A stretch of 64,000 bases of DNA from Skermanella rosea (GTDB lineage Bacteria > Pseudomonadota > Alphaproteobacteria > Azospirillales > Azospirillaceae). The notes under the pieces are model-generated. The model saw nothing but the letters and a program-made list of their open reading frames with translations. It was not told the origin of the DNA and made no database searches. Below, piece after piece: positions 2,184-23,066 of this stretch. Made by a program: the position numbers and the translations under genes. The stretch spans positions 612,001-676,000 of the forward strand of contig NZ_CP086111.1 in assembly GCF_016806835.2 (NCBI RefSeq), in the 5' to 3' direction. Position 1 is the first letter of the stretch, and every line of letters starts with the position of its first letter.

Positions 2184-3560
2184 TCAGCCGCCGGTTTCCG
2201 CGTCACGCGGCCCGCCGTCGCGCGGCGCCAGGGCGGCCAGCAGGCGGCGCGGCAGCAGGGGCGGCGGGATGCCGACCCGCTGCCAGGCCATGGCCGCCAT
2301 GGCGATCTGGCTGCCCAGCAGCGACAGGGTGGTCATGGCGGCGGCGCCCTCGATCCCGAAGGCCGGGATCATGACCAGGTTCAGGGCGACGTTGGCCGCC
2401 GCGGCGCAGCCCAGCGCCCGCATCGCCTGCTGCTCGTGCCCCGTCATGGTCAGCATCAGGTGGCTCGGGCCGATCACCGTGCGCAGGCAGATGCCGACCA
2501 TCAGGATACGGGCGGCTCCGGCACCGTCGACGAATTCGGACCCGAACAGCCCGAGGATCCAGGGGGCGAGGACGATCAGCGGGATGCCGATGACCAGCGA
2601 CCCGGCGAGCGTCATCAGGGTCGTCGTCCGCATGAAGGCGGCCAGTTCTGTCCGCTCTCCCCGGGCATAGTGGGCGGCGAACGAGGGGGCGACGATCGCG
2701 CCGACCGCCAGGTACGGGAACAGCACCAGTTCGGCGACGTTGCAGGCGACCACGTAGACGCCGGCGTCGGCGGCCGTCATCAGCCAGCCGATCATCAGCA
2801 CGTCGCTGCGCTGGAGCAGGAGCTGGCTGCCGCCGGTAAGTCCCAGGACGAAGGCCGAGGCGATCCAGTCGCGCCGCCGGAAGACCGCGCGCGGCGCGGG
2901 GGCGGGCAGCACCGCGAGGCGCCGGCGGAGATACAGGATCAGGGTCAGCGCGCTCGCCCCGCCCAGCGCCACGAATCCCATGACGGCCGGCGGCGTCAGC
3001 GTCAGCGACAGGCCGGTCGCGGCTCCGACCAGGAGCAGCACGACGGCGTCGCGTCCGAGTCGTTCCGGCGCGGTGCCCAGCACCACCTGGCCCTGCCCGT
3101 ACAGCACGGCGGCATTGAGCCTCAGCATGGCGAGCAGGGGCAGCACCACGAAGCCGGCCAGGAAGGTGGCGCCGAGCTCCGCCGGGATTCCCGGCTGCCG
3201 GGATATCAGGAACGCGCCGAGCGCCGAGATCCCGATGCTGAGGGCGCCGACCAGGACGGCGGCATGGCGGAGCACGCCGGCGAGCAGGGCCCATTCCTGC
3301 CGGGCCTGGTGCGCCGCGACGTTGCGCATCATCAGCATGTCGTGGCCCATGACGGCCACGTAGACCAGGATGTTGATCCAGGCCATGACGTAGGCGAAAT
3401 GCCCGTAGCCTTCGTGGCCCAGCAGGCGGGCGAGTACGATCTGGAGTAGCAGCGCCTGGGCCATGCCCGCGACGTTCAGCGCCATGACGCTGCCGCCGCC
3501 CCGGGCCAGCCGCATGAACGCCGGGTTCCGCGTGATCAGGAGAGGAAGTCTAAATGCCAC
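2184..3560 (-). CDS. Polysaccharide flippase, Wzx/MATE-type oligosaccharide translocator
   Basis: A 458-residue, strongly hydrophobic protein with about 12-14 predicted membrane segments, the size and layout of Wzx-type flippases that move lipid-linked repeat units across the inner membrane. The N-terminal region (residues 20-60) with an Asn-Val-Ala-Gly segment followed by LLLQIVLARLLGHEGYGHFAYVM split over the first two helices is typical of the polysaccharide biosynthesis protein family. It begins with GTG at 3560; no strong ribosome site is visible. It is divergent from the asparagine synthase gene across a 245-nt spacer. The locus also has an ABC exporter (Wzm/Wzt), so this flippase may serve a second polymer or another lipid-linked sugar. 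Confidence 0.85.
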   Translation of the reverse strand: MAFRLPLLITRNPAFMRLARGGGSVMALNVAGMAQALLLQIVLARLLGHEGYGHFAYVMAWINILVYVAVMGHDMLMMRNVAAHQARQEWALLAGVLRHAAVLVGALSIGISALGAFLISRQPGIPAELGATFLAGFVVLPLLAMLRLNAAVLYGQGQVVLGTAPERLGRDAVVLLLVGAATGLSLTLTPPAVMGFVALGGASALTLILYLRRRLAVLPAPAPRAVFRRRDWIASAFVLGLTGGSQLLLQRSDVLMIGWLMTAADAGVYVVACNVAELVLFPYLAVGAIVAPSFAAHYARGERTELAAFMRTTTLMTLAGSLVIGIPLIVLAPWILGLFGSEFVDGAGAARILMVGICLRTVIGPSHLMLTMTGHEQQAMRALGCAAAANVALNLVMIPAFGIEGAAAMTTLSLLGSQIAMAAMAWQRVGIPPPLLPRRLLAALAPRDGGPRDAETGG

Positions 3561-3805: not shown

Positions 3806-5803
3806 GTGTGTGGCATCTGCGGTTTCGTCGAACCTTCCGGCCGCCGGGCGCCGGCATCCCTGGTGCGCGCGATGGCGGATGCCCTGGCCCACCGCGGCCC
3901 GGACGGCGACGGCGTCTGGACCGACGAGGAGGCGGGCGTCGCGTTCGGCCATCGGCGGCTCGCGATCGTCGACCTGTCGCCCCTGGGGCGCCAGCCCATG
4001 GAATCGGCCGACGGCCGGCTGGTGCTGACCTTCAACGGGGAGATCTACAACTACCGGGACCTGCGTGCCGAACTGGAAGCCGGCGGGATCCGCCTGCGCG
4101 GCCAGTCCGACACCGAGGTGCTGGTCGAGGCCTGCGCCGCCTGGGGCGTCGGCCCGACGGTGCGGCGGCTGATCGGCATCTTCGCCTTCGCCCTGTGGGA
4201 CAAGGCCGCCCGGCGCCTGACGCTGGTCCGCGACCAACTCGGCGTCAAGCCGCTCTACTGGGGCCGGACCGGGAGCGGGGCCGGGGCCGGGGAAGGCGTG
4301 ATGTTCGCGTCCGAACTGAAGGCGCTGCGGGTGCATCCGGGCTGGTCGCCCGAACTGGACCGCGGCGCGCTGGCCTCCTACCTGCGCTTCAGCTACGTTC
4401 CCGCGCCGCACACGATCTACCGCGGCGTGGCCAAGCTTCCCGCCGGCTCGATGCTGACCTGGGAACCGGGGACCGAGCCCCGCACCGAACGCTACTGGGA
4501 CATGCGGGCGATAGCGCGGGTTCCGCCGCGCGAACGCGATCCGGCGTCGGCGATCGACGCGCTGGAGGCGCTGCTGGGCGACGCCGTCGGCCGGCAGATG
4601 GTCGCCGACGTGCCGCTCGGCGCCTTCCTCTCCGGCGGGATCGACAGCTCGACCGTGGCGGCGCTGATGCAGGCCCGGAGCGGCCGGCCGGTGCGGACCT
4701 TCTCGATAGGGTTCGACGCGGCGGGCTATGACGAGGCGGTCCACGCGAAGGCGGTCGCCGGACACCTGGGCACCGACCACGCCGAGCTCTATGTCGGCCG
4801 CGACCACGCCCGCGACGTGATCCCCCGGCTGCCCGACCTGTTCGACGAGCCTTTCGCCGACAGCTCCCAGATCCCCACATACCTGGTCTCGGAAATGACC
4901 CGCCGCCACGTCACCGTGGCGCTGTCGGGCGACGGCGGCGACGAGCTGTTCGCGGGCTACCACCGCTATTTATGGGCGGACGCGGCGCGCCGGCGGCTGG
5001 ACCGCCTTCCCCGGAGCCTGCGCGGGGTCGCGGCGGCGGCGCTCTCGGGACCGTCGGAAAGTGCCTGGGACCGCGGGTTCGGCCTGCTTCCGCGCGCGTT
5101 CCGGCCGGACCGCGCGGGCGATCGCCTGCACAAGCTGGCGGCGCTGCTCGCGGCGTCGGGACCGGACGAGGTCTATCGTGGCCTGCTGTCCCACTGGGAC
5201 CCGGCGGAGATCGTCAGGGGGGCGGACGAGCCGCGCGGCATCCTGTGGGACGGCTCGGTCGCCGGCGAGATCCCTGACTTTCTCCGGCGCATGCAGTTCC
5301 TCGACACGGTGACCTATCTTCCGGACGACATCCTGGCGAAGGTGGACCGGGCCAGCATGGCGGTCGGGCTGGAGGCGCGGGTGCCGCTGCTCGACCATCG
5401 CGTGGTCGAGTTCGCCGCCGGCCTGCCGGCCTCGCTCAAGGTGCGCGACGGACAGGGCAAGTGGCTGCTCCGCCAGGTGCTCTACCGCCACGTCCCCCGG
5501 GAGCTGGTGGAGCGGCCGAAGATGGGCTTCAGCGTGCCGCTCGGCGACTGGCTGCGCGGCCCCCTGCGCGACTGGGCCGAGGATCTGCTGGACGGGCGGC
5601 GGCTGGACGAGGACGTCGTGCTCGATCCGGGGCCGGTCCGCCGCCGCTGGGCGGAGCACCTGTCGGGCACGCACGACCACGGCGACAGGCTGTGGGGCGT
5701 GCTCATGTTCCAGGCATGGCGGCGGCGCTGGCTCGGCCCTGGCTCCGACCGGGCCGGGGAGGCCGATCCGGCGCCCCGGCCGCATCGGGCGGCAGTCGGG
5801 TGA
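3806..5803 (+). CDS. asnB: Asparagine synthase (glutamine-hydrolysing) family amidotransferase
   Basis: A 665-residue protein with the class II glutamine amidotransferase domain first (about residues 2-200) and the ATP-pyrophosphatase synthetase domain after it. The start is GTG at 3806 because the next codon is the essential Cys2 nucleophile (MCGICGF). The PP-loop FLSGGIDSS lies near residues 274-282, and LSGDGGDELFAGYHRY near residue 375 is also family-typical. The length suits AsnB, but copies inside polysaccharide loci often amidate a sugar acid or an unknown surface substrate rather than making asparagine. The nearby UDP-glucuronate epimerase makes amidation of a uronic acid a reasonable inference. 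Confidence 0.92.
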   Translation: MCGICGFVEPSGRRAPASLVRAMADALAHRGPDGDGVWTDEEAGVAFGHRRLAIVDLSPLGRQPMESADGRLVLTFNGEIYNYRDLRAELEAGGIRLRGQSDTEVLVEACAAWGVGPTVRRLIGIFAFALWDKAARRLTLVRDQLGVKPLYWGRTGSGAGAGEGVMFASELKALRVHPGWSPELDRGALASYLRFSYVPAPHTIYRGVAKLPAGSMLTWEPGTEPRTERYWDMRAIARVPPRERDPASAIDALEALLGDAVGRQMVADVPLGAFLSGGIDSSTVAALMQARSGRPVRTFSIGFDAAGYDEAVHAKAVAGHLGTDHAELYVGRDHARDVIPRLPDLFDEPFADSSQIPTYLVSEMTRRHVTVALSGDGGDELFAGYHRYLWADAARRRLDRLPRSLRGVAAAALSGPSESAWDRGFGLLPRAFRPDRAGDRLHKLAALLAASGPDEVYRGLLSHWDPAEIVRGADEPRGILWDGSVAGEIPDFLRRMQFLDTVTYLPDDILAKVDRASMAVGLEARVPLLDHRVVEFAAGLPASLKVRDGQGKWLLRQVLYRHVPRELVERPKMGFSVPLGDWLRGPLRDWAEDLLDGRRLDEDVVLDPGPVRRRWAEHLSGTHDHGDRLWGVLMFQAWRRRWLGPGSDRAGEADPAPRPHRAAVG

Positions 5804-6119: not shown

Positions 6120-7355
6120 GTGGTCGGCACTGACAAGCGACACATGTCCGACGGCCGGAAGCGGAATCTTCTGCTTTGGTATTGGGGCAGGCGAGGCGGT
6201 GGAGCCCATTATTGCTTGGAAGTTGCCCGTGAACTGTCTCGGCGGGACGAGTTCAACCTGCACCTGTCGGTTTCCCGCAATTGCGATCTCTACCGCGAGA
6301 TCAAGGCGTTGGGGCTCCCGGGGTTCGACGTGGACACCTATTGCGATGTCGGATCGGCGGTCATGGCGCTGTCGCGCCTTCCGCAGGTCAGGCGGCAGTT
6401 CAGGGAATACTTGGAAAAACACGAGATCGACGTCGTCCTGTGCACCATGCAGCACCTGTGGAACCCCTTCATGCTGCCGGCGATCCGCCGGGCCGGCGCG
6501 CGCTACGTCGTGACGATCCACGACGCGGCACTCCATCCGGGCGAGCGGTTCCTGCCGTACCAGTGGTGGCTGGACTGGGAGATCCGCCAGGCCGACGGGT
6601 ACGTGGTGCTGAGCGACCATGTCGGCAGCGTCCTGCGCACTCGCCACCGCACCGCGGCCGACCGGATCGCCGTGGCCCCCTGCGGCCCGTTCAACCAGTT
6701 CATCGACGCCGGGCGGGCCTGCCGGCCGGCGGGCGAGATCCGGGCGCCCCGGCGGCTGCTCTTCTTCGGCCGGATCATCGCCTACAAGGGCCTCGACCTT
6801 CTGCTCGACGCCTACGGCCGGCTCAAGGCCGACCATCCCGACCTCAGCCTGGCCATCTACGGCGACGGCGACATCTCGCCGTACCGGGCCGCCCTGGAAA
6901 GGCTGGCGGACGTGACCGTGGAGAACCGTTACATCGGGGAGGAGGAGTTGCATGGCATCCTGGAGGAGGCCGACCTCGTCGTCCTGCCCTACCGGGAGGC
7001 CAGCCAGTCCGGAGTCCTGGTCCTGGCCGAGGCGGCCGGCCTGCCGGTGGTCGGGACGCCGGCCGGCGCGCTGGTCGAGCAGATCGTCCCCGGCGTCAAC
7101 GGCCTGATCGCGGCCGGCATCAGCGGAGAGGAGCTGGCGGCGTCGATCGGTCGTCTGCTGGACGATCCCGCCCTCTATCACCGCTGCGTCCAGGGCATCG
7201 CCCGGAACGCCGAGGACCGATGGTCGGAAGCCGGCGACCGCATCTCCCGCTTCCTGCTGGGGGCGGGCGCGTCGGCCTCTCCGGCACCCCGTTACAACGC
7301 CGTTCCGGCCCCCGGGACGGAAAGCCGCCTGCCGCTCCGCCGGCAGGCGCGCTGA
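6120..7355 (+). CDS. GT-B glycosyltransferase, family 4
   Basis: A 411-residue cytoplasmic or membrane-associated glycosyltransferase that probably adds one sugar of the surface polysaccharide from a nucleotide donor. The N-terminal half carries a glycine-rich acceptor-side motif (WGRRGGGAHYCLEVARELS). The C-terminal half has the family 4 pattern: LLFFGRIIAYKGLDLLLDAY near residue 220, and VLPYREASQSGVLVLAEAAG near residue 290, a variant of the EX7E donor-binding motif. GTG at 6120 has a good ribosome site; an ATG at 6144 is an alternative without one. It is followed 18 nt later by another glycosyltransferase. Donor and linkage are unknown. Confidence 0.86.
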   Translation: MVGTDKRHMSDGRKRNLLLWYWGRRGGGAHYCLEVARELSRRDEFNLHLSVSRNCDLYREIKALGLPGFDVDTYCDVGSAVMALSRLPQVRRQFREYLEKHEIDVVLCTMQHLWNPFMLPAIRRAGARYVVTIHDAALHPGERFLPYQWWLDWEIRQADGYVVLSDHVGSVLRTRHRTAADRIAVAPCGPFNQFIDAGRACRPAGEIRAPRRLLFFGRIIAYKGLDLLLDAYGRLKADHPDLSLAIYGDGDISPYRAALERLADVTVENRYIGEEELHGILEEADLVVLPYREASQSGVLVLAEAAGLPVVGTPAGALVEQIVPGVNGLIAAGISGEELAASIGRLLDDPALYHRCVQGIARNAEDRWSEAGDRISRFLLGAGASASPAPRYNAVPAPGTESRLPLRRQAR

Positions 7356-7373: not shown

Positions 7374-8600
7374 GTGATGACGGTATCCCCCCGGAAGACC
7401 GTGCGCTCGCTGTGGCGGAGCATGCCGCCGGGCCTGCGCCGGTCGCTGCTGTTCGGCACCACCCGGCTGGCCGCTCCCATCGCACGGCTGCCCGGCCCGC
7501 CGCCGGCCGAACCGGTCGTCGTCGTGGGGCCGATCTCCAGCGCCACCGGCCTCGGGGAAGGGGCGCGGCTCTGCATGCGTGCGCTCCGCGCCCAGGGGCT
7601 GGACGTACGCGGCTTCGACGTCAGCCAGGTCATGCTCGGCGGCGATCCCGCGGAGCCCATCGACCCCGGCGCCGCGGTCGCACCGGGGCCGGGCACCGTG
7701 ATCCTGCACGTCAACGCGCCGCTGGCGCCGCTGGCCCTGCTGATGCTGGGACGGGCGGCGATCAAGGCCAAGCGGATCATCGGCTATTTCGCCTGGGAGC
7801 TGCCCGACCTGCCGGCCGACTGGATCGCCGCCCTGGCGCATGTCCACGAGATCTGGGTTCCCAGCCGGTTCACCGCCGACGCGTTCCGGCGGCACACCGA
7901 CCGTCCGGTGCGGATCGTGGCCCATCCGGTCGCGGCGCCGGGCCGCCTCCGGCCGGCTGGCGATCGGGCCGGCGCGCCCTTCACGGTGCTCACCCCGTTC
8001 AACATGGCGTCCGGCTTCACCCGGAAGAACCCGGTGGCGGCGGTCCAGGCGTTCAAGCTGGCCTTCGGGCCGGCCGACGAGGCGCGGTTGATCCTGAAGA
8101 CGCACCATGTCCCGGCCTATCCGGCCGGCCGCGACCAGCTGGCCGAGGCGATCGACGGCGATCCTCGCATCAGCGTCCTGGATGGCACGCTGGACCGGAC
8201 TGAGCTGGACGCGCTGATCGCCGGCAGCGACGCCGTGATGCTGCTCCACCGGTCCGAGGGATTCGGCCTGCCGCTCGCGGAGGCGATGGGACACGGCGTG
8301 CCGGTCGTCGCCACGAACTGGTCGGGCAACACGGACTTCATGGATTTCGACAATTCCTGCCCGGTTTCCTACTGGCTGGTGCCGGCTGTCGACCCTCAGG
8401 GAAGCTACCACTACGCCGACCAGGTCTGGGCCGAACCCTCGGTGGAGTACGCCGCCCGGCAGTTGCGCCTTCTGGCGGAAAGCCCGGACGCCCGCGTCCG
8501 GCTGGGCGTTGCCGCCACCGCGACGATCCGCCGGCGCTGCTCGTCCGAGACCTATGCCGAGACCCTGGGCTCCCTCCTGCTGACCGGCGCAGAGGTCTAG
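7374..8600 (+). CDS. GT-B glycosyltransferase, family 4
   Basis: A 408-residue retaining-type glycosyltransferase. The N-terminal part contains VVGPISSATGLGEGARLC, the glycine-rich acceptor-side loop seen in mannosyl- and rhamnosyltransferases of this family. The C-terminal donor site is HRSEGFGLPLAEAMGHG near residue 284, a full EX7E motif, followed by VPVVATNWSGNTDFM. GGGGAGG at 7359-7365 is a strong ribosome site for the ATG at 7374; a GTG directly before it could also be used. It belongs with the preceding glycosyltransferase by spacing and the pair is separated from wzm by 225 nt containing a possible promoter. The exact sugar cannot be assigned. Confidence 0.88.
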   Translation: MMTVSPRKTVRSLWRSMPPGLRRSLLFGTTRLAAPIARLPGPPPAEPVVVVGPISSATGLGEGARLCMRALRAQGLDVRGFDVSQVMLGGDPAEPIDPGAAVAPGPGTVILHVNAPLAPLALLMLGRAAIKAKRIIGYFAWELPDLPADWIAALAHVHEIWVPSRFTADAFRRHTDRPVRIVAHPVAAPGRLRPAGDRAGAPFTVLTPFNMASGFTRKNPVAAVQAFKLAFGPADEARLILKTHHVPAYPAGRDQLAEAIDGDPRISVLDGTLDRTELDALIAGSDAVMLLHRSEGFGLPLAEAMGHGVPVVATNWSGNTDFMDFDNSCPVSYWLVPAVDPQGSYHYADQVWAEPSVEYAARQLRLLAESPDARVRLGVAATATIRRRCSSETYAETLGSLLLTGAEV

Positions 8601-8825: not shown

Positions 8826-9641
8826 ATGAATGCTGTGATCACGAAAATTCCCTTTGCGGAACCGCTGTGGCGCTATCGGGCCTTCATCTGGAGCGCAGCC
8901 ACGCGCGAGATGCGCCTGCAGTCGATGAACTCGGTCCTCGGCTGGCTGTGGCCGGTGCTGAACGCGGCGGCCCTCATCCTGCTGTACATGACGCTGTTCG
9001 TCGAGGTGCTGAAAAGCAGGCTGCCGGGTTCCGACGACAGCATGTCCTATGCGATCTACCTGTGCGTCGGCATCATCACCTGGACCTACTTCTCCAACAC
9101 CATCCTGCGCTCGCTGAACATCTTCGGCGAGAACGCCATGCTGCTGAAGAAGGCGGGATTCCCGAAGATCACGCTGCCGATCATCGTGATCGTGTCCCAG
9201 GGCGTCCAGTTCGCGATCATGCTGGGGGTCTTCGCCGTCCTGCTGATCGTGACCGGCCGGATCCCGGGATGGGCCCTGCTGGGCATGATCCCGCTGCTGG
9301 TCCTGCAGCAGGCCATCGCGATCTCGCTCGGCATGCTGCTCGGCACGCTCAACGTCTTCTTCAGGGACGTCGGGCAGGCGATCGGCATCGTGCTGACCTT
9401 CTGGTTCTGGCTGACCCCCATCGTCTATCCGCTGTCGATCCTGCCCCCGGCGGTCGCCTCGTTCGTCACGAACTGGAACCCGATGACCCGGATCATCACC
9501 GGATACCACGACATCGCGCTCAACAACGCCCTGCCGGACCCGGCCGCCTATATCGGCCACGTGGTGCTGGCGGCGGCGCTGTTCGCGCTGGCCTATTTCT
9601 GCTTCAAGCGTCTGTACAGCGCGGTCCAGGACTATCTTTGA
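8826..9641 (+). CDS. wzm: Polysaccharide ABC exporter, permease subunit
   Basis: A 271-residue ABC-2 type inner-membrane permease with about six hydrophobic segments, the usual Wzm size. After a short cytoplasmic stretch (RYRAFIWSAATREMRLQS) comes GWLWPVLNAAALILLYMTLF, the first helix; FWFWLTPIVYPLSILP near residue 195 is the family signature of polysaccharide exporters. It works as a dimer with two Wzt subunits to carry a finished, lipid-linked glycan across the inner membrane. Its TGA overlaps the ATG of the ATPase gene, so the two are translationally coupled. Presence of this pair implies an ABC-dependent O-antigen or capsule rather than only a Wzx/Wzy route. Confidence 0.95.
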   Translation: MNAVITKIPFAEPLWRYRAFIWSAATREMRLQSMNSVLGWLWPVLNAAALILLYMTLFVEVLKSRLPGSDDSMSYAIYLCVGIITWTYFSNTILRSLNIFGENAMLLKKAGFPKITLPIIVIVSQGVQFAIMLGVFAVLLIVTGRIPGWALLGMIPLLVLQQAIAISLGMLLGTLNVFFRDVGQAIGIVLTFWFWLTPIVYPLSILPPAVASFVTNWNPMTRIITGYHDIALNNALPDPAAYIGHVVLAAALFALAYFCFKRLYSAVQDYL

Positions 9642-10927
9642 TGCCCCTGATCAGCATCCGGAACATCACCAAGAAGTACCATACCTTCGCCAGCGACTGG
9701 GACCGCTTCGTCGAGGCGATCACCAACGGCAGGATCCGGCGGCGCCACGAGCACTGGATCCTGAAGGGGGTCTCGCTGGAGGCGGAGCCCGGGGAGTCGA
9801 TCGGCATCATCGGCTACAACGGCGCCGGCAAGAGCACCCTGCTCAAGATCGTCCTGGGAGTCTCGACGCCCGACAGCGGCACCGTCGCGATCAACGGCCG
9901 GGTCGCCGGGCTGCTGGAATTGGGCGTCGGCTTCCATCCCGAATTCACAGGCCGGGAGAACGCGACGATCAGCTGCCAGCTCCTCGGCCTCGACCCGGCG
10001 GAGATCCCGCCGCTGGTCGAGGAGATCAAGCGCTTCTCGGAGCTGGAGGACTATTTCGACGAGCCGATGCGGACATATTCCACCGGCATGCAGATGCGCC
10101 TCGCCTTCAGCGCGTCGACCGCGGTCCGCCCGGAGATCCTGGTGGTCGACGAGGCCCTGGCGGTCGGCGACGCCTATTTCCAGCACAAGTCGATGGCGCG
10201 GATCCGGCGCTTCCGCGAGGCGGGGACGACCCTCTTCCTCGTCTCCCACGATCCGACCGCGATCAAGAACCTGTGCGACCGGGCCCTGATCCTCGAGGAG
10301 GGGGTGGTGATCCGCGACGGCCGGCCGGACGAGGTCCTGGACTACTACCAGGCCATGGTCAACCGGCGGAAGAAGGACGAGGAGATCCGCCAGTTCAGCA
10401 ACGACGGCGTCGTCGTCACCCGCAGCGGCGACGCCCGGATGGAAATCTCCGCCATCCAGATCCTGGACATGGACGGAAGGCCCGGCCGGGTCTTCAAGAC
10501 GGGGGAGACCGCCCGCATCCGGCAGACCATCACCTGCAACGATCCCGACGTCCGGCCCAATGTCGGCATCATGATCCGCGACCGGCTGGGCAACCATATC
10601 TACGGCACCAATACCCATCTGAAGAAGGTCACGATCGACGACCGCTTCGAGGTCGGAACGCGGTTCCACGTGGATTTCGACGTCGAGCTCCGGCTGGGCG
10701 CCGGGTCGTACAACGTCTCCGTAGCCGTGGTCGACGACGCCCTGCACAGCAGCCATCTCGACTGGATCGACCAGGCGGTCGTCTTCCAGGTCATGCCCGA
10801 CGGCGTGCCCGACTACGCGGGCCTGACGCCGCTGCCGGCCCGCCTCTCCTATGGCCGTGGCTCCGGGATCGAATCGGGAGCCGGGGGCGAGCAGCTCGGT
10901 GCCGACCGGGTGGAGGCGGGAGACTGA
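9641..10927 (+). CDS. wzt: Polysaccharide ABC exporter, ATPase subunit with C-terminal sugar-binding domain
   Basis: A 428-residue protein in two parts. Residues 1-245 form the ABC ATPase: Walker A GYNGAGKST at 58-66, signature YSTGMQMRLAFS at 146-157, Walker B ILVVDEA at 166-172 and the switch His203. Residues about 265-405 form a beta-rich domain (starting near SGDARMEISAIQILDMDG) like the carbohydrate-binding domain of Wzt from E. coli O9a, which binds the modified end of a finished chain and licenses export. Wzt proteins without this domain are about 250 residues, so the longer length matters. The ATG overlaps the wzm stop. The next gene encodes a methyltransferase, a plausible source of the end modification. 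Confidence 0.95.
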   Translation: MPLISIRNITKKYHTFASDWDRFVEAITNGRIRRRHEHWILKGVSLEAEPGESIGIIGYNGAGKSTLLKIVLGVSTPDSGTVAINGRVAGLLELGVGFHPEFTGRENATISCQLLGLDPAEIPPLVEEIKRFSELEDYFDEPMRTYSTGMQMRLAFSASTAVRPEILVVDEALAVGDAYFQHKSMARIRRFREAGTTLFLVSHDPTAIKNLCDRALILEEGVVIRDGRPDEVLDYYQAMVNRRKKDEEIRQFSNDGVVVTRSGDARMEISAIQILDMDGRPGRVFKTGETARIRQTITCNDPDVRPNVGIMIRDRLGNHIYGTNTHLKKVTIDDRFEVGTRFHVDFDVELRLGAGSYNVSVAVVDDALHSSHLDWIDQAVVFQVMPDGVPDYAGLTPLPARLSYGRGSGIESGAGGEQLGADRVEAGD

Positions 10928-10940
10928 ACGCCTCGGCGCT

Positions 10941-10975
10941 CCGGCCCCGGGAGCCCCGGCCCCGGGAGCCCCGGC
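10941..10975. repeat. 15-bp tandem repeat, 2.3 copies
   Basis: CCGGCCCCGGGAGCC occurs at 10941-10955 and identically at 10956-10970, followed by CCGGC. It lies in the 109-nt gap between wzt and the FkbM gene. No function is evident; it could vary in copy number by slippage. Confidence 0.85.
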
Positions 10976-11036
10976 GGCGGCGAAGCGCCCCGATCCCGGC
11001 CCTCCGTGACCAATCCGATATCGAGACCCCGAGCCG

Positions 11037-12554
11037 ATGACCTTTATCTCCTACGCCCAGAACTACGAAGACATCATGCTGTTCCGCGCCCTGCGCGGCG
11101 TGGAGCAGGGCTTCTATGTCGATGTCGGCGCCAACAGCCCGGACGAGCATTCCGTGACCCGCGCCTTCTACGAGCGCGGGTGGCGGGGCATCAATATCGA
11201 GCCGGTCCTGGAATTCCACCGGCAGTTGCTGGAGGCGCGTCCGCGCGACGTCAACCTGCCGATCGCCATCGCGGACCGGACCGGGTTCATCGAGTTCCAC
11301 GACGTGGCCGGCACCGGCCTCTCCACGATAAACCCGAAGATCGCCGAAAATCATCGTGCCGCGGGTTATCAGGTCACCAGGCGCAGCGTCGTGGTCGAGA
11401 CGCTCGACGAGGTGTTCCGGAAGTATGTCAGCGGCGAGGTCCATTTCCTCAAGATCGACGTCGAGGGACTTGAGGGGTCGGTCCTGCGGGGGCTTTCCCT
11501 CGAGGAGATCCGGCCCTGGATCATCGTGGTCGAGGCGACGGAAGTCCTGAGCCAGGTGCAGAGCCATGCATCCTGGGAGCCCCGTCTGAAGGAGCGGGGC
11601 TACTCCTTCGTCTATTTCGACGGCCTCAACCGCTTCTACGTGGCGGACGAGCATGCCGATCTGGCCGGTTCCTTCGAGAGCCCGCCCAACGTCTTCGACG
11701 ACTGGATGCGGATCACCGACCGCCAGGCGCACGACCGGGCCAACGTGCTCTCCGCCAAGCTGGAAGAGGAGCGGGAGTCATACAGGAGCGAACTGGAGAT
11801 CCTGAAGGCCCAGGTCGAGGAATGGAAGACCCGGGCCGAGGCCGCCCAGGCCGCCGAAGCCGCCAGGCGCGCGGAGGAAGCGGCTCGCAGGGCCGAGGAC
11901 GAGTCGCGGCGGCTGGAGCTGGAGGCGCGCCTGGGCGAGCTGATGCGTGCTCTCGATGAGGCTGCCGCGGCCGGGGCCCGGGCGTCCGAGCGGGAGGCGA
12001 GGCTGCTCGACCAGATGGCGGACCTGTCCGTCCAGGCCGCCGGATTGAGGACCGGCATCGTGGCCCTGCGGGAAGGAATGGAGAATTCGGTGCAGGCCGA
12101 GACGGCCGCGCTGAGGCACCGGCTGGCCGAGCTGGAGCACGCCTCTTTCCTGGCCAAGCTGGAACTGGACTCGGTCCTGGCCAGCTCCTCCTGGCGCATC
12201 ACGGCGCCGATGCGGGGGGTCAAGATGGCCGCCGCGGCCCTCGCCAGGTCCATGGGGGACGCCGGGGGCTCCCGGCCGGGTCCCTCCCTGGTCAGCCGCG
12301 CGGCCCATTGGTCGGCGCGCCAACCCGTGCTCAAGCGCGCCGCGGTGGCCGTCCTGGCGAGGAGTCCCGCGCTGGAGCGCAAGGTCCGTTCCCTCGTGGC
12401 GCCGCCGCCGGGGGTGCCGGCGACCGCCGTGGCCGACATTCCGCCGCCGCGCCGGCCGGACCGCTCCGGCCCCGCCATCGTCTCCCGAAGCCCGTCCCCG
12501 GCTGAAGCCATCGTCGAAACCGCTTTCCGACGCGCGCTCGCGCGCGCGCGCTGA
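11037..12554 (+). CDS. FkbM-family methyltransferase with long coiled-coil extension
   Basis: A 505-residue protein. Residues 1-200 are an S-adenosylmethionine-dependent FkbM methyltransferase: GFYVDVGANSPDEHSVT (motif I) near residues 24-40, GINIEPVLEFHRQLL next, and VHFLKIDVEGLEGSVLRGL near 138-156. Residues about 230-385 are an almost unbroken charged, alanine-rich heptad region, a strong coiled coil. Then comes SSSWRITAPMRG, a motif often found after coiled coils in large polysaccharide enzymes, and a proline-rich tail. It sits between wzt and a double glycosyltransferase. By analogy with WbdD of E. coli O9a, where a methyltransferase joined to a coiled coil caps the chain and sets its length, this could be the chain terminator. 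That role is inference. No kinase domain is visible. Confidence 0.85.
   Translation: MTFISYAQNYEDIMLFRALRGVEQGFYVDVGANSPDEHSVTRAFYERGWRGINIEPVLEFHRQLLEARPRDVNLPIAIADRTGFIEFHDVAGTGLSTINPKIAENHRAAGYQVTRRSVVVETLDEVFRKYVSGEVHFLKIDVEGLEGSVLRGLSLEEIRPWIIVVEATEVLSQVQSHASWEPRLKERGYSFVYFDGLNRFYVADEHADLAGSFESPPNVFDDWMRITDRQAHDRANVLSAKLEEERESYRSELEILKAQVEEWKTRAEAAQAAEAARRAEEAARRAEDESRRLELEARLGELMRALDEAAAAGARASEREARLLDQMADLSVQAAGLRTGIVALREGMENSVQAETAALRHRLAELEHASFLAKLELDSVLASSSWRITAPMRGVKMAAAALARSMGDAGGSRPGPSLVSRAAHWSARQPVLKRAAVAVLARSPALERKVRSLVAPPPGVPATAVADIPPPRRPDRSGPAIVSRSPSPAEAIVETAFRRALARAR
12531..12551. repeat. Alternating CG tract at the 3' end of the FkbM gene
   Basis: A 21-nt run of alternating C and G, broken by one T, encodes the terminal Ala-Arg residues of the methyltransferase and ends at its TGA. 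Such tracts favour left-handed DNA and replication slippage. It is only 18 nt before the next start codon. Confidence 0.7.
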
Positions 12555-12569
12555 CCGGAAGAAGCCACC

Positions 12570-15500
12570 ATGCGTATCGTCCTGGACCTGCAGTCCCGCC
12601 AATCGCCGAGCCGCGTCCGCGGCATCGGGCGCTACTCCCTGGCCCTGGCGCGCCACCTGGCGACGCTGGCGACCGGCCACGAGGTCATCGTCGCGCTGAA
12701 CGGGGCGCTGCCCGACATGGTCGACGCGGTTCGCGCCGACCTGGACGGATTCGTCCCCGCTGAGCGGATCGTCACCTGGTCCCAGCCCGGCGGCGTCGGA
12801 TCCGTGACCGGGGACAGCCGCTGGCGCGCCCGCGCCGCGGAGCGGCTGCGCGAGCGGTTCCTGGAGTCGCTGCGACCGGATGTCCTGCACGTGTCCAGCC
12901 TCTTCGAGGGGCTGGGCGACGATGTCACCACCTCCATCGGGGAGGTCGCCGCCGACCTGCCGACCGCGGTCACCTTGTACGACCTGATCCCGCTGGTCCG
13001 GCGCGACGTCTACCTGGCCAACCCCGCGGTCGCCGACTGGTACGAGCGCAAGCTGGCGTCGCTGCGGCGGGCCGACCTGTGGCTCGCGATCTCCGACCAT
13101 ACGCGGCGGGAGGGGATCGAGCTGCTTGGCCTGCCGGAGGACCGGGTGCGGTCGATCTCGTCCGCGGTCGACCCGATGTTTCGCCCGGTCGAGCCGGCGG
13201 ACGAGGCGGCCCTGCGGCGGCGCTACGGCCTGGAGAAGCCGTTCGTCCTGTACACGGCGACCATCGAGCCGCACAAGAACGTGGAAGGGCTGTTCACGGC
13301 CTACGGGAAACTGTCGCCGCAGGTGCGCCGATCCCACCGGCTGGCCATCGTCTGCCGGATCGACGACCATAACCTGGCGCGGCTGAACGCCGCCGCCCGC
13401 CGGGCCGGCCTGCGCGACGACGACTACGTCATCACCGGCTACGTTCCGGACGAGGATCTGCTGGCGCTCTATACCATCTGCCGGCTCTACGTCTTTCCGT
13501 CGCTCCACGAGGGCTTCGGCCTGCCGGCCCTGGAGGCGATGGCCTGCGGCGCCCCGGTGATCGCGTCGGACTCGACGAGCCTGCCCGAGGTGGTCGGCCG
13601 CCCGGATGCCCTGTTCGACGCCGCATCGCCCGAGGCCATCGCGGGCGCCATGGAGCGGGCCTTGGGCGACGAAGGCTTCCTCGCGGACCTGCGCCGGCAC
13701 GGCCTCGCCCGCGCGCGCCTGTTCAGCTGGGAGAGCACGGCGCGCAAGGCGCTCGACGCCTTCGAGGAACTGCATGACCGGCGCCGCGAAAGCTCCCGCG
13801 TCGCGGTGCGTGCGCCGCTGCCTCGGCGGCCCCGGCTGGCCTTCGTCTGTCCGCTGAAGCCGGAAGTGAACCGGTTTTCCCGCCATGCCGGCGCGATCCT
13901 GCCGGAACTGGCCCGCTACTACGACATCGAGTGCGTCGTTCGCCAGGACCTGGTCGAGGACGGATTCGCCCGGTCCAACCTGCCGATCCGGTCCGCCTCG
14001 TGGTTCGCCGGGAACGGGGCGCGGTTCGACCGCGTGCTCTACCACCTGGGGAACGATGCCGACCTTCATCCCTGGGTCTCGGACCTGCTCCGACAGTGGC
14101 CCGGCACCGTCGCGCTTCATGACGACCGCCTGGGCGACGCGCTGTCGCTCCTGCCGCCCGCGGAAGGGCGGCCCGACCCCTGGACGGCCGAGCTTTACCG
14201 CTCCCACGGCTGGACGGCGGTGATCGAGCGCCTGCGGGCGGAAGATCCCGAAGCCGTCGTGGTGAAATACCCGTGCCTGGGATCGGTCCTGGAGAGCGCG
14301 GCCGGAATCGTCCGGCCCGATCCGGACCGCAGCCCGGCCCGCATGGCCGAGCTGTATCGCGATGCGCTGGAGGAGCATGCCGGGGACTCCCGCATGGCGC
14401 GCCTGGACCGGCTGGCCGACGACGTCATGGCGATCTCCGCTCCCGATGCTCCCGGTCCCGAAGATTGGGAAAAGGTGCTGGTCTGCGCCGCCGAGAACCT
14501 GCCTCCGGCGGTACCGGTCCGCCAGTTCCTGATCGACGTGTCGGAACTCGTGCAGCGCGACGCCGGCACCGGCATCCAGCGGGTCACGAAGAACATCACC
14601 CTGAAGCTCCTGGAGAACCCGCCGGCCGGTTTCCGGGTCGAGCCGGTCTTCGACGACGGCACCGGGGTGTTCCGCTACGCCCGCGCGCTGACGGCGAAGC
14701 TGATCGGCATGCCCGGCCAGGGCCTTGGCGACGATCTGATCGACACCCGGCCGGGCGACGTGCTGCTCGGCCTGGACCTCGTGGCGCACCAGATCGCCGG
14801 CCGGCAGGAGCTGAACCGCCGCCTGCGGCACCGGGGCGTTCGCGTCTTCTACGTCGTGTACGACCTGCTTCCCGTCCTGCGGCCGCAATGGTTCCCTCCG
14901 TTCCCGCTGTTCCGCACCTGGCTCCAGACGATCTCCCGCGAGGCGGACGGCTTGGTCTGCATCTCGCGATCGGTGGCGCAGCAACTGCTGGACCACCTGC
15001 CGGAACTGGACGTCGAGCGGCTGACGCCGCTGAGGATCGGCCATTTCCATCTCGGCGCGGATATCGACACCAAGGCGGGTAGGGTATCCGACGGGGTGGC
15101 GTCCCTGCTGGAACGGCCGACCCTGAAGTTCCTGGTGGTCGGCACGGTCGAACCCAGGAAGGGGCATGCCCAGTGCCTCGCCGCCTTCGAGGAACTGTGG
15201 GCCGCCGGAGCCGACATCGACCTCGTCCTGGTCGGCAAGCAGGGTTGGATGGTCGAGGAACTGGCCGCCAGGATGCGGGGCCACGTCGAGGCCGGCAGGC
15301 GGCTCCACTGGCTCGACAAGGCCTCGGACGCCGATCTGAACGCGCTCTACGCACAATGCACCGCATTGCTCGGCATGTCGCAGGACGAGGGCTTCGGCCT
15401 TCCGCTGATCGAGGCCGCCAAGCACGGCCAGCCGATCATCGCGCGGGACATCCCGGTTTTCCGGGAGATCGCCGGCGATCATGCGACGTATTTCTCCGGG

Positions 15501-15794
15501 ACGGAGGGGCGTGATTTCGCGGAGGCTTTGTCCGCCTGGATCGAGCGCCATCGTCGTGGCGACGTGCCGAATACCGGGAACATGCCCTGGCTGACCTGGG
15601 CGCGTGCGGCGGAGCAACTCGTCGATGCCGTCCTGCACGACCGGTGGGACGCCATTTGGCAACCGGGTCCGACCGATCCGCAACGGCGGGCGGGTGGCCG
15701 GGAACATGAACGGTCCTGCGCCGATACCGCCGGCGGAACGGCCATGGCGGACGGCGACGAGCCGGAGCCGTCCCGCTTGGCACGGCGCGCCTGA
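12570..15794 (+). CDS. Double glycosyltransferase (two GT-B family 4 modules)
   Basis: A 1074-residue protein, about two and a half times a single family 4 enzyme. Module one (residues 1-410) begins DLQSRQSPSRVRGIGRYS, has TATIEPHKNVEGLFTAYG near 230 and the EX7E site HEGFGLPALEAMACG near 312. A middle segment (420-640) looks like a further N-terminal half-domain. Module two (650-1040) begins FLIDVSELVQRDAGTGIQR, has VVGTVEPRKGHAQCLAAFEE near 855 and a second EX7E site DEGFGLPLIEAAKHG near 938. Such fusions polymerise or alternate linkages in mannan and rhamnan O-antigens (WbdA- or WbpY/WbpX-like). Its position beside wzm/wzt and gmd/rmd supports a 6-deoxyhexose donor. The ATG at 12570 follows GGAAGAAG. 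Confidence 0.88.
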   Translation: MRIVLDLQSRQSPSRVRGIGRYSLALARHLATLATGHEVIVALNGALPDMVDAVRADLDGFVPAERIVTWSQPGGVGSVTGDSRWRARAAERLRERFLESLRPDVLHVSSLFEGLGDDVTTSIGEVAADLPTAVTLYDLIPLVRRDVYLANPAVADWYERKLASLRRADLWLAISDHTRREGIELLGLPEDRVRSISSAVDPMFRPVEPADEAALRRRYGLEKPFVLYTATIEPHKNVEGLFTAYGKLSPQVRRSHRLAIVCRIDDHNLARLNAAARRAGLRDDDYVITGYVPDEDLLALYTICRLYVFPSLHEGFGLPALEAMACGAPVIASDSTSLPEVVGRPDALFDAASPEAIAGAMERALGDEGFLADLRRHGLARARLFSWESTARKALDAFEELHDRRRESSRVAVRAPLPRRPRLAFVCPLKPEVNRFSRHAGAILPELARYYDIECVVRQDLVEDGFARSNLPIRSASWFAGNGARFDRVLYHLGNDADLHPWVSDLLRQWPGTVALHDDRLGDALSLLPPAEGRPDPWTAELYRSHGWTAVIERLRAEDPEAVVVKYPCLGSVLESAAGIVRPDPDRSPARMAELYRDALEEHAGDSRMARLDRLADDVMAISAPDAPGPEDWEKVLVCAAENLPPAVPVRQFLIDVSELVQRDAGTGIQRVTKNITLKLLENPPAGFRVEPVFDDGTGVFRYARALTAKLIGMPGQGLGDDLIDTRPGDVLLGLDLVAHQIAGRQELNRRLRHRGVRVFYVVYDLLPVLRPQWFPPFPLFRTWLQTISREADGLVCISRSVAQQLLDHLPELDVERLTPLRIGHFHLGADIDTKAGRVSDGVASLLERPTLKFLVVGTVEPRKGHAQCLAAFEELWAAGADIDLVLVGKQGWMVEELAARMRGHVEAGRRLHWLDKASDADLNALYAQCTALLGMSQDEGFGLPLIEAAKHGQPIIARDIPVFREIAGDHATYFSGTEGRDFAEALSAWIERHRRGDVPNTGNMPWLTWARAAEQLVDAVLHDRWDAIWQPGPTDPQRRAGGREHERSCADTAGGTAMADGDEPEPSRLARRA

Positions 15795-17147
<1,353 letters not shown>

Positions 17148-17155
17148 GACGGGCC

Positions 17156-18163
17156 GTGTCTTCGGAAGAAACGCCGCTCAAGGTGCTGGTGACGGGGGGA
17201 ACCGGCTTCGTGGGCCGTCACCTCATCGCCGCGCTGGACAGGACGCTGGCGGACGGGAGCGAGATCGTCGCCGGCACTTCCCGGCCGGGCGCCGATCCGG
17301 CGGGCGCGGGGATTCCGTCCGGCCGCATTCCGGTCCGCCTGACAGGGATGGACGTCACCGACGCGGCGCAGGTAAGCTCCGTCGTCCGTGCCGAACAGCC
17401 GACCCATATGGTGCATCTCGCGGCGATCGCGGCCGTGACGGCGGCCACCCGGGACCCCCGCTTCGCGTGGGGCGTCAATCTCGGCGGCACGTTGAACGTC
17501 GCGCTGGCGGTCGCCGACGAATGCCCGTCGTGCCGCATCCTGTTCAGCAGCAGCTCGGAGATCTACGGCGCCAGCTTCAAGGCCGGCGTGCCCCTGGACG
17601 AGGGGGCGCTGCTTCAGCCGGCCAACCCCTATGCCGCCAGCAAGGCGGCGGCCGACCTGATGCTCGGGCAGATGGCGCTCCAGGGAGTCGCCGTCACCCG
17701 GGTCCGGCCGTTCAACCATACCGGCCCCGGCCAGGGCGAGCAGTTCGCCATCCCATCGTTCGCCGCCCAGATCGCGCGGATCGAGCTTGGACAGCAGGAG
17801 CCCGTCATCCGCGTCGGTTGGCTGGATGCCGTCCGGGACTTCCTCGATGTCGGCGACGTGGTCGACGGCTATGTCCGGATCATCCGGTCGGCCGATCGGC
17901 TGCCGCCCGGATGCATCATCAACCTCGCCTCGGGAACCGGCAGGCGGATCGGCGATCTGCTGGACAGGCTCGTGTCCATGTCGACGGTGCCGATCGAACT
18001 GGTACAGGATCCCGCCCGGTTCCGCGCCAGCGATACGCCCTCGGTCGTCGGCGACAGCAGCCGGGCCCGGGAGCTGCTGGGCTGGAAACCGGAGCGCGAC
18101 ATGGACGATACCCTGCGTTCGGTTCTGGACTACTGGCGGACGCGCCTGGGCCCGAGGGGCTGA
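17156..18163 (+). CDS. rmd: GDP-6-deoxy-D-mannose reductase-like (GDP-D-rhamnose forming) SDR
   Basis: A 335-residue extended SDR enzyme. The Rossmann motif GGTGFVGRHL is at residues 14-23 (G14, G17, G20), the SSSSEIYGA catalytic serine region near 129-137, and the Tyr159/Lys163 pair in NPYAASKAAADL. RVRPFNHTGPGQ near residue 182 is strongly characteristic of Rmd-type reductases, which reduce the Gmd product at C4 to GDP-D-rhamnose. Direct coupling to gmd (8-nt gap) supports this. GTG at 17156 is the start. A related 4-epimerase/reductase outcome such as GDP-6-deoxytalose cannot be excluded. Confidence 0.88.
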   Translation: MSSEETPLKVLVTGGTGFVGRHLIAALDRTLADGSEIVAGTSRPGADPAGAGIPSGRIPVRLTGMDVTDAAQVSSVVRAEQPTHMVHLAAIAAVTAATRDPRFAWGVNLGGTLNVALAVADECPSCRILFSSSSEIYGASFKAGVPLDEGALLQPANPYAASKAAADLMLGQMALQGVAVTRVRPFNHTGPGQGEQFAIPSFAAQIARIELGQQEPVIRVGWLDAVRDFLDVGDVVDGYVRIIRSADRLPPGCIINLASGTGRRIGDLLDRLVSMSTVPIELVQDPARFRASDTPSVVGDSSRARELLGWKPERDMDDTLRSVLDYWRTRLGPRG

Positions 18164-19636: not shown

Positions 19637-20560
19637 TCATCGAGTCGGAGCCGGCCGGGGCGGCACGGCCGTGCAGTCCGGAACCTCCCGGAGGACCGCC
19701 GGCCATTCCTCCAGCCAACCCTTGTCATGGCTGGCGCCGGCGACCTGCAGGATTCGCAGGCAGGCATCTGGCGCCGCGCGCCGGGCGTAGCTGTCGGCGA
19801 CCAGCCGGGGCACGACGCCGTCCCGCGCGCCGACCAGGTGCAGTTGCGGCAAGGCACCCAGGCGGCGCGCCGAGTCGGACGGGTCGAGCGAGCCGGACAG
19901 GGGCGAGATCCGGTGGTGGGAAGTCCACGCCGCCGTGGCGAGGTTTCCCGCGACGCTGACCACGGCGGCCACGTCGGACCGCCGGGCCGCCAGCAGGACG
20001 ACGGCGCCGCCGCCACCCGAATACCCGATCAGCACGAGCCGATGGGGCGGAGTGGGGAGCGCCCGGTCGATCGCGCCGTCCAGCGCCGCTATCACCGGTT
20101 CGGCGAGGCGCCGCGAGGTCCAGAACGTCGACTCGCACGAGTCGCGGGAGCCCGCCGGCCGGAATTGGCATGGCCGCCCCAGGTACAGGACGTTGGGTCC
20201 GCCATCCAGCGCGGCGAGCCGCAGCGCCATCGGGTTGAGCGGCGTCGGGTCGGATGACGGGTCGGTAGGCGACGACCAGGCATAGCCGTCGCCCTCGACA
20301 TACACATGAACGGGGGCGCCCGGCTGGTCGAAGCGCGACCAGACGGCGATGTCGAACCCGCCGGAGCGCAGGGTGGACCTGGTTAATCCGCCCCCTGCGG
20401 CGATTTCGGCGGCCGCGGACCCGCGTTCGGCCGGGCTGGCCGTGCATCCGGCCGCGAGAAGGGACGCCAGGAGGAGCGCCAGCCCGCGGCGCCCCCGCGG
20501 CATTCGCGGTGGCGGCCGGCCGGGCGCGGCGGCGCTGCGATCAGTCGCGGCGCAGTTCAT
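19637..20560 (-). CDS. Predicted lipoprotein alpha/beta hydrolase
   Basis: A protein of up to 307 residues with a lipoprotein signal: a basic segment (MPRGRRG), a hydrophobic core and the lipobox LLAAGC, so it is probably attached to the inner or outer membrane and faces the periplasm. The catalytic part has VYVEGDGYAW near residue 88, IGYSGGGGAVVLLAARR near 195 (nucleophile elbow G-Y-S-G-G), an Asp in VGARDGVVP near 262 and a His in AGASHDKGW near 286, together a full Ser-Asp-His triad. The ATG at 20560 overlaps the end of the ligase gene by 20 nt; a second ATG at 20503 gives a more usual signal peptide. Possible work: deacylation or depolymerisation of surface glycan; substrate unknown. Confidence 0.75.
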   Translation of the reverse strand: MNCAATDRSAAAPGRPPPRMPRGRRGLALLLASLLAAGCTASPAERGSAAAEIAAGGGLTRSTLRSGGFDIAVWSRFDQPGAPVHVYVEGDGYAWSSPTDPSSDPTPLNPMALRLAALDGGPNVLYLGRPCQFRPAGSRDSCESTFWTSRRLAEPVIAALDGAIDRALPTPPHRLVLIGYSGGGGAVVLLAARRSDVAAVVSVAGNLATAAWTSHHRISPLSGSLDPSDSARRLGALPQLHLVGARDGVVPRLVADSYARRAAPDACLRILQVAGASHDKGWLEEWPAVLREVPDCTAVPPRPAPTR

Positions 20561-22643: not shown

Positions 22644-23066
22644 CCGGATTTATCCTCTCAGCGACCCCTGAAGGGCCGGTCATGACGCGGTCCACGCCGC
22701 CGACGCGGGGCGGTCCCCGGACCGTGCCCGGCCGCCGTCACGGACGGGGCGCGACCGGGTCCGGCGGGATTCCGCGGGGGCTGCTTGGCCGAGCGCCACT
22801 ATCACCGCGAGTATTTAATGTTGCCTTAACGCTGATGCGGTCGAATTGGGGAAGGAATGACAGCGCTGGTGCGGTGTCCGGGATGGCGCATATCCTGATA
22901 ATCAGCTGTCTGGTGTGTCTTTGGTGCCATAAACCTGAACAGGTGCATTACGACGCACGTGATACGATTATCGGTACTTGATCCTTCTCCCCAGATTGTT
23001 TACTCATGACGGTACGCAGTTCGAAATTTGCAGAACTTTGCCGCATTCGCCGCAGGGGGCACATTT
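22644..23066. other. 423-nt divergent spacer before the autotransporter
   Basis: No convincing gene. The first half is GC-rich, the second AT-richer. An imperfect dyad ACCTGAACAGGT (5-bp arms ACCTG/CAGGT) lies at 22933-22944 and could be an operator. TTGATC at 22978-22983 is 17 nt before TACTCA at 23001-23006, only a weak promoter match. AGGGGG at 23054-23059 is the autotransporter ribosome site. Confidence 0.35.

Follow-up and report, generated by a model that had tools for sequence, protein, structure and literature searches.

A candidate chain terminator with an FkbM head and a long helical spacer in an ABC-transporter-dependent polysaccharide locus of Skermanella rosea

What does a methyltransferase of the FkbM family do at the end of a long helical spacer when its gene directly follows that of a transporter subunit with a sugar-binding domain? 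The question is raised by a 505-amino-acid (aa) protein encoded in a 64,000-nucleotide stretch of the Skermanella rosea genome (assembly GCF_016806835.2, contig NZ_CP086111.1), which was analysed as a whole and is called the window here; it corresponds to C1:612001-676000 of a 7.76-Mb genome, G000 in our locus labels. We propose, with a probability of roughly three in four, that the protein serves as the chain terminator of a surface polymer that is exported by an ATP-binding cassette (ABC) transporter and probably contains D-rhamnose, in the manner of WbdD from Escherichia coli O8 but with an FkbM head. The original prediction for this locus had likened the protein to WbdD of E. coli O9a and had seen in it a different architecture for chain-length control. 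The likeness in function is supported by the context, which would suit a coiled-coil terminator acting with a cap-reading Wzt and the adjacent double glycosyltransferase, but the novelty was overstated: O8 has the same gene order, a methyltransferase-only WbdD and the same SWRITxPLR module, and control of O-chain length by an FkbM protein had already been suggested in print (PMC10888714). The system is a variant of an established machine and no new principle of length control, and what genuinely separates it from O8 is the catalytic head. It was less expected that unrelated heads are exchanged on a common scaffold and that the cap pocket may have changed to match.

According to the mechanism that we propose, the tail following the SWRITAPMR motif would lie at the inner membrane and recruit the WbdA-like double glycosyltransferase, as the shared tail and gene order suggest. 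The spacer, roughly 150 helical residues long, would keep the methyltransferase off the polymerase, so that, by extrapolation from O9a, only chains of sufficient length could reach it. The head would then O-methylate the non-reducing terminal sugar, at which point elongation would stop, and the C-terminal domain of Wzt would bind the methylated end and license export, as in the Aquifex and O8 systems. The proposal draws on features that were observed directly, namely the domain layout, the neighbouring genes, synteny with O8, a shared tail module, the residues of the cap pocket and the repeated exchange of heads.

The FkbM protein and its operon

The operon comprises, in order, two glycosyltransferase family 4 (GT4) genes, wzm, wzt, the FkbM protein gene, a double GT4 gene, gmd and an RMD-like reductase gene:

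6120..7355, + strand: GT4 glycosyltransferase (PF13692 E 3.3e-23, PF00534 E 1.6e-19), possibly an adapter enzyme
7374..8600, + strand: second GT4-like glycosyltransferase (PF20706 E 9.7e-11, PF13692 E 8.7e-10)
8826..9641, + strand: Wzm, ABC-2 permease (PF01061 E 2.9e-18)
9641..10927, + strand: Wzt, 428 aa (PF00005, ABC_tran, residues 41-173; PF14524, Wzt_C, residues 260-389, E 5.9e-31)
about 10418-10807, + strand: C-terminal cap-binding domain of Wzt, residues 260-389 (PF14524)
11037..12554, + strand: FkbM protein, 505 aa (PF05050, TIGR01444)
11037..11702, + strand: FkbM methyltransferase head, residues 1-222 (PF05050 at 29-191)
11712..12182, + strand: long helical spacer, probable coiled coil, residues 226-382 (AlphaFold2 helices, windowed heptad test)
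12189..12215, + strand: SWRITAPMR motif, start of the shared tail module, residues 385-393 (sequence motif)
12216..12551, + strand: basic helical tail (charge; profile match to O8 WbdD)
12570..15794, + strand: double GT4 polymerase, WbdA-like, 1074 aa (two PF00534 stretches)
16167..17147, + strand: gmd, GDP-mannose 4,6-dehydratase (TIGR01472 426.6 bits, cut-off 415)
17156..18163, + strand: RMD-like NAD-dependent epimerase/reductase (PF16363 E 3.3e-50)

The operon is kept in three other Skermanella genomes (L026-L028), in one of which the transporter has been deleted, and the GT4 gene at 6120..7355 is kept in four other genomes of the genus. In a search from which records very close to the window's own may be missing, the nearest named relative was Skermanella aerolata, with 60% identity in its best segment, in keeping with an origin in Skermanella. 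Because gmd scores above its equivalog cut-off and an RMD-like reductase is encoded in the same operon, GDP-D-rhamnose is likely to be the building block; the reductase step is a presumed one, the protein falling under all of the NCBIfam equivalog cut-offs listed. Wzy-dependent assembly was considered for this gene set and rejected, given the adjacent Wzm/Wzt and WbdA-like polymerase.

The first part of the protein belongs to the FkbM family by both PF05050 (residues 29-191, E 5.8e-30, 105.1 bits against a cut-off of 22.7) and TIGR01444 (66.5 bits against 37.7), and columns of the head that are invariant in 15 homologues include those of the S-adenosylmethionine (SAM) motif and others, for example D29, G31, D141 and E143. 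PF05050 is the sole Pfam family found in the 505 residues at E<=0.01, so that a kinase elsewhere in the protein, which the original prediction had also held to be missing, was rejected. An AlphaFold2 model (16-row alignment, mean predicted local distance difference test score, pLDDT, of 72.9) has a methyltransferase fold up to about residue 203, a helix at 226-313 with pLDDT mostly 81-88, a weak, low-confidence break at 315-322, a second helix at 324-382 with pLDDT of about 58-76, and then a helix over the SWRITAPMR motif followed by shorter helices. The two spacer helices comprise 147 helical residues in all, in agreement with the predicted FkbM domain joined to a coiled coil of about 150 residues. 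At 1.5 A per residue they would, if continuous, span roughly 220 A, which is close to the length of about 200 A given for O9a WbdD (PMC5082667).

Whether this spacer has a heptad repeat depends on the scale at which it is examined. A Fourier test over the whole region showed no significant periodicity (p 0.17-0.74 at period 3.5). A test in 28-residue windows, run after that outcome, gave p=0.008 at period 3.5 for the window protein, and p<0.05 for 11 of 17 proteins at 3.5, two at 3.667 and none at 3.2 or 4.0, these 17 including the window protein and near relatives. Among near orthologues, four of seven differences in spacer length are multiples of 7 (binomial P 0.010, a comparison chosen after the fact), even though the spacer is the least conserved part of the protein. 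Given the heptad evidence, these length differences and the conserved Skermanella operon, the FkbM-plus-coiled-coil layout is more than chance. Counted from the start of the motif, the first 80 residues have a net charge of +11; the predicted helices of the tail are basic and just modestly amphipathic (hydrophobic moments 0.27-0.61); we propose that it may be a docking region for membrane and polymerase.

A sequence search of the PDB with the window protein gave no match at E<=0.01. With a profile of the homologue alignment, 15 weak matches to the spacer were obtained there, the best at E 0.036 and most of them to coiled-coil or helical proteins, and Foldseek returned generic class I methyltransferases (best E 3.2e-4), with no WbdD among the best 50 matches listed.

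Relation to O8 WbdD and other terminators

The closest parallel is the E. coli O8 locus (L104, L106), where wzm, wzt, a 425-aa methyltransferase and a 1213-aa glycosyltransferase follow one another in the same order; the RefSeq record assigns wzm and wzt to the O8 family, and WbdD and WbdA were assigned by position. Identity to the window proteins is 48% for Wzm (225 columns), 44% for Wzt (403 columns) and 43% for residues 1-401 of the double glycosyltransferase against WbdA (E 2.9e-81). O8 WbdD, described as methyltransferase-only (PMC3482155), shares with the window protein a SWRITxPLR-type motif, a basic tail and the lack of a kinase, and has a coiled coil where the window protein has a probable one; where this coiled coil ends, it carries NSRSWRITQPLRWL, with the motif SWRITQPLR. 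However, its head is of the WbdD type (Methyltransf_23-like) and not FkbM, the O8 polymer is mannose-based, and residue 350 of its Wzt (Aquifex aeolicus numbering) is His rather than Val. The heads are unrelated at the family level, as had been predicted: a blastp comparison of the window protein with O8 WbdD gave no match at E<=0.01, and hhalign of FkbM against WbdD heads aligned 37 columns around the SAM-binding motif with a probability of 0.5% and E 0.12. The window protein therefore does not belong to the WbdD family by head homology, nor, PF05050 being its only family at the same threshold, to the O9a type by a kinase domain.

The link between the two proteins lies in the tail. A profile of motif plus tail, built from 14 FkbM-head proteins alone (all beside Wzts) and searched against 3880 open reading frames (ORFs), recovered O8 WbdD at E 3.1e-8, together with the WbdD-head proteins L113 (2.2e-11), L118 (4.4e-10), L114 (3.0e-8) and L108 (1.5e-5); it had no match among reversed ORFs. 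The SWR motif is found in six of the eight WbdD-type proteins with an N-terminal head and in none of the seven in which the head comes last.

Terminators that combine a coiled coil with a cap-reading Wzt form an established class (PMC11231755, PMC3482155, PMC5082667). The window gene agrees with this class in its pairing with a cap-domain Wzt (PF14524, in the directly preceding gene, as the original prediction had noted), an association that recurs across homologues. O9a WbdD combines a methyltransferase, a long coiled coil and a C-terminal docking region (PMC3482155, PMC5082667), a layout that the window protein probably shares, but differs in its kinase, its methyl-phosphate cap and its demonstrated trimer. 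In Klebsiella O4, O7 and O12, too, terminator activity has been assigned to coiled-coil proteins of ABC-transporter systems (ORF7-O4, ORF6-O7 and WbbB; PMC11231755), yet their heads are Kdo (3-deoxy-D-manno-oct-2-ulosonic acid) transferases or a methyltransferase-kinase, none of them FkbM. For Ochrobactrum O-antigen clusters it has been proposed, citing the authors' earlier work, that FkbM may control O-chain length (PMC10888714); this rests on a gel pattern and the presence of the gene in a related strain, and the words Wzt and ABC transporter are absent from the available text of that paper, in which coiled coil was not searched for. In Pseudomonas syringae a wzm-wzt operon has been named for transport, extension and termination (PMC12608077). 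No FkbM coiled-coil terminator appeared among the titles and abstracts listed, a scope outside which most subscription papers fall, so that absence is unproven. The 2019 census of Mann, Kimber and Whitfield reportedly predicted new termination chemistries and may already include FkbM terminators, and a 2020 paper on P. syringae by Jayaraman and others is said to describe wzm, wzt, an O-methyltransferase and a bifunctional glycosyltransferase.

Recurrence, exchange of heads and the cap pocket

The combination of Wzm, a Wzt with a C-terminal domain, an FkbM coiled-coil protein and a large glycosyltransferase recurs in Skermanella, where there are two paralogous loci, and in Azospirillum, Rhodanobacter sp. 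T12-5, Pantoea agglomerans, Marivivens, Peteryoungia and two Rhizobium plasmids. Sixteen of 48 FkbM-subfamily ORFs have the spacer, the motif and a tail of 80-180 aa; a rule of motif plus length was used here because the tail profile had been built from proteins beside Wzts. This full-length form is near a Wzt with a C-terminal domain in 15 of 16 cases, against 4 of the 32 other ORFs (Fisher 5e-8), and the sixteenth (L037) sits at a contig end. As none of 11 generic FkbM loci had a Wzt nearby, it is the full-length form, and not the head alone, that predicts a capping context. The table of 48 omits L040, which duplicates L036, and a reading frame truncated at the edge of L050; it has no row for L074 (internal stops) and includes places where contig ends restrict the neighbours, for example L037, L061, L063 and L065.

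Related transporters also carry different heads. In a family sample of 81 genomes with 50 Wzt places at E<=1e-60, 14 Wzts matched through the cap-binding domain; nine of these adjoin FkbM coiled-coil genes, four (L075, L076, L089, L090) a coiled-coil protein whose head is of the WbdD type, and one (L038), where the contig ends, a truncated FkbM start. Neither head type lay within 5.5 kb of any of the 13 Wzts examined from the other 36. One such exchange lies within the genus: Skermanella G081 is 88% identical to the window in Wzm, 91% in the nucleotide-binding domain (NBD) of Wzt and 81% in its carbohydrate-binding module (CBM), but the FkbM gene and double glycosyltransferase are replaced by a coiled-coil protein of 603 aa, whose Methyltransf_23 (WbdD-type) head is C-terminal, and another multi-glycosyltransferase of 1167 aa, and a C-methyltransferase-like gene has been added. 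On the Wzt tree the head type has to change seven times, with at least three of these changes forced by well-supported branches; on a tree with residue 350 masked the number is five.

The window genome itself encodes three cap-domain Wzts, of which two are paired with FkbM heads and the third with a WbdD-type head. The further loci, both with Wzm/Wzt and a cap-binding domain, are L029 (G000:C1:1247500-1266500), with an FkbM coiled-coil protein, and L076 (G000:C1:5373500-5393400), where the WbdD-type head is at the C-terminal end of the coiled-coil protein. Such reversed polarity, with the coiled coil first and the head last, was seen in 7 of 15 WbdD-type cases, for example:

L075, 11141-12952
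L076, 7420-9075
L089, 7948-9285

The closest solved full-length Wzt is that of A. aeolicus (8dku_A), matched by residues 6-405 of the window Wzt at E 6.1e-79. The cap domain alone matched the A. aeolicus domain at E 1.3e-8 and, at E<=10, found nothing beyond A. aeolicus chains and a single chance match, in a library whose content of the O9a domain was left unchecked. We know of no capping enzyme from A. aeolicus. Its polymer of D-rhamnose and D-mannose has 3-O-methyl caps, and its domain binds 3-O-methyl mannose, with Leu300, Thr346, Ala348 and Trp362 holding the methyl group and Asn313 and His350 binding the sugar, His350 at the C2 hydroxyl (PMC9445017). In the same numbering, used throughout, the window Wzt keeps Arg304, Asn313, Ala348, His355 and Trp362, has Met for Leu300 and Ser for Thr346, and is changed at His350 (Val) and Val380 (Ala); by its homologous domain and pocket it is a cap-binding Wzt of the A. 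aeolicus and O8 kind. Arg304, Asn313, His355 and Trp362 occur together in 18 of 19 Wzts beside FkbM heads and in 14 of 15 beside WbdD-type heads, against none of 13 controls.

Residue 350 tends to vary with the head. Beside FkbM heads it is Val in 14 and Thr in four of the 18 Wzts with the pocket, Ala in the outlier L035 and His in none of the 19, and beside WbdD-type heads it is His in 13 of 15, the exceptions being L075, with Val like its FkbM sisters, and L114, with Ser. L035, in which the pocket is absent, is counted among the 19 but left out of the Fisher table and the tree; L119 and L120, both with Ser, stand outside the 15, their WbdD-type heads lying at distances of 3.2 and 4.6 kb. Where a Wzt has the pocket but no head was found close to it, the residue is His (L107), Ser (L109-L111) or Val (L121, L122). 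The raw association of head type with residue 350 is strong (Fisher 1.8e-7), in a set that includes close relatives and was found through the window head or Wzt or O8 kin rather than by random sampling. Independent pairs on the Wzt tree gave three pairs on supported branches with a median p of 0.5; in most pairings two differ in the same way, none in the opposite way and one shows no difference. With so few independent changes, the matched change of head and pocket is a lead and not a result. The pattern suggests that the caps written by FkbM heads may differ at C2. NoeI, a relative of FkbM, methylates O-2 of fucose.

It is conceivable, although we consider it doubtful, that terminators evolve as exchangeable cartridges, with unrelated heads swapped on a shared scaffold and FkbM heads writing a different cap that is read by a changed pocket. 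No less tentative is the detail that such a cap might bear, for example, a methyl group at O-2 or be a di-O-methyl sugar instead of a 3-O-methyl one, in step with the change from His350 to Val or Thr. Were this the case, the chemistry of the export cap could change without rebuilding the ruler, the polymerase dock or the transporter, and a single pocket residue might report the cap that is read, making cap chemistry predictable from Wzt sequence at many unstudied O-antigen loci. Skermanella, with two head types on nearly the same transporter, would offer a natural comparison.

Alternative explanations and neighbouring genes

Several observations weigh against the proposal that the window protein is a terminator of the O8 kind. 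The heptad signal is only moderate, and residue 350 of the window Wzt is unlike that of A. aeolicus and O8, so that the same cap is not to be assumed. Taken as a whole, the FkbM subfamily is not bound to ABC export: among its 48 ORFs, 23 have no Wzt in the stretch, some of these stretches ending at contig ends, and six are near a Wzt without a C-terminal domain. The FkbM coiled-coil protein of L035 is paired with a Wzt of another C-terminal type, and the FkbM-family proteins of L025, L035, L068 and L070 stand beside cap-domain Wzts but lack the motif as defined. The motif-plus-tail module is also found in proteins with neither head type, and is therefore not terminator-specific but looks like a general assembly tail. 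In one alternative the enzyme would decorate internal or side sugars or a precursor, with the spacer as a mere scaffold that keeps methyltransferase and glycosyltransferase together and length set in some other way, for example by the ratio of transporter to polymerase. FkbM-subfamily heads do exist without a spacer, or fused to glycosyltransferases with no cap-domain Wzt near (L041, L053, L060, L072), and beside cap-domain Wzts the length of the spacer varies widely, between 46 and 209 residues. Nevertheless, the full-length form is strongly tied to cap-domain Wzts, the pocket residues for a methylated end are retained, and gene order, tail and polymerase agree with O8, and we regard decoration as improbable.

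Rather more weight, though still that of an unlikely explanation, is given to a true terminator without a ruler, in which methylation would halt the chain stochastically and the spacer would merely tether the head close to the membrane complex. The idea of a ruler is carried over from O9a and O12 (PMC11231755, PMC5082667), and the low confidence at residues 315-322 means that the spacer may not be a single rigid rod; the heptad multiples among the length differences, which would be expected if register matters, point the other way but are weak, post hoc evidence. It is very improbable that the locus is silent or decaying and makes no polymer. Decay has a precedent in Skermanella G080 (L028, 8700-8990), where about 2.2 kb is gone, removing wzm and nearly all of wzt and leaving 57 matched bases near the wzt 3' end (8773-8829 of L028). 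The one other Wzt-like match in that genome at E<=1e-30 covers residues 41-240 only; the neighbouring glycosyltransferase is frameshifted, the spacer shortened and the motif altered, with the FkbM and double glycosyltransferase frames open, a pattern that is consistent with a pathway in decay and is no proof of function. In the window locus, by contrast, every frame is open, and relative to G079 Wzt is 95-99% and the head 90% identical.

FkbM heads also occur in other settings. Fusions to glycosyltransferases (L041, L060, L070, L072) tie the head to polymerase modules where a cap-domain transporter is not always present. Large proteins with an FkbM head followed by glycosyltransferase domains, and no Wzt in the stretch, lie at L041 9001-13554 (1517 aa), L036 2-4336 (over 1445 aa) and L053 5513-10414 (about 1600 aa). 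On a Rhodovastum atsumiense plasmid (L042, 9034-13588) an FkbM and glycosyltransferase pair with no Wzt is found some 7 kb from flagellin and FlgI genes, and may act on another substrate.

Elsewhere in the window, a protein encoded at 20541-22643 on the - strand matches an O-antigen ligase domain weakly and below threshold (Wzy_C, E 4.4e-6) and is possibly the ligase for the polymer of the ABC locus or for another one. Beside the ABC locus are a flippase-like protein (2184-3560, - strand; Polysacc_synt, at cut-off) and an asparagine-synthase-like amidotransferase (3806-5803), and parts of a second polysaccharide system may therefore be mixed in. The stretch at 23028-25646 encodes an autotransporter, in which a beta-domain (E 1.4e-57) is joined to a passenger made up of repetitive sequence.

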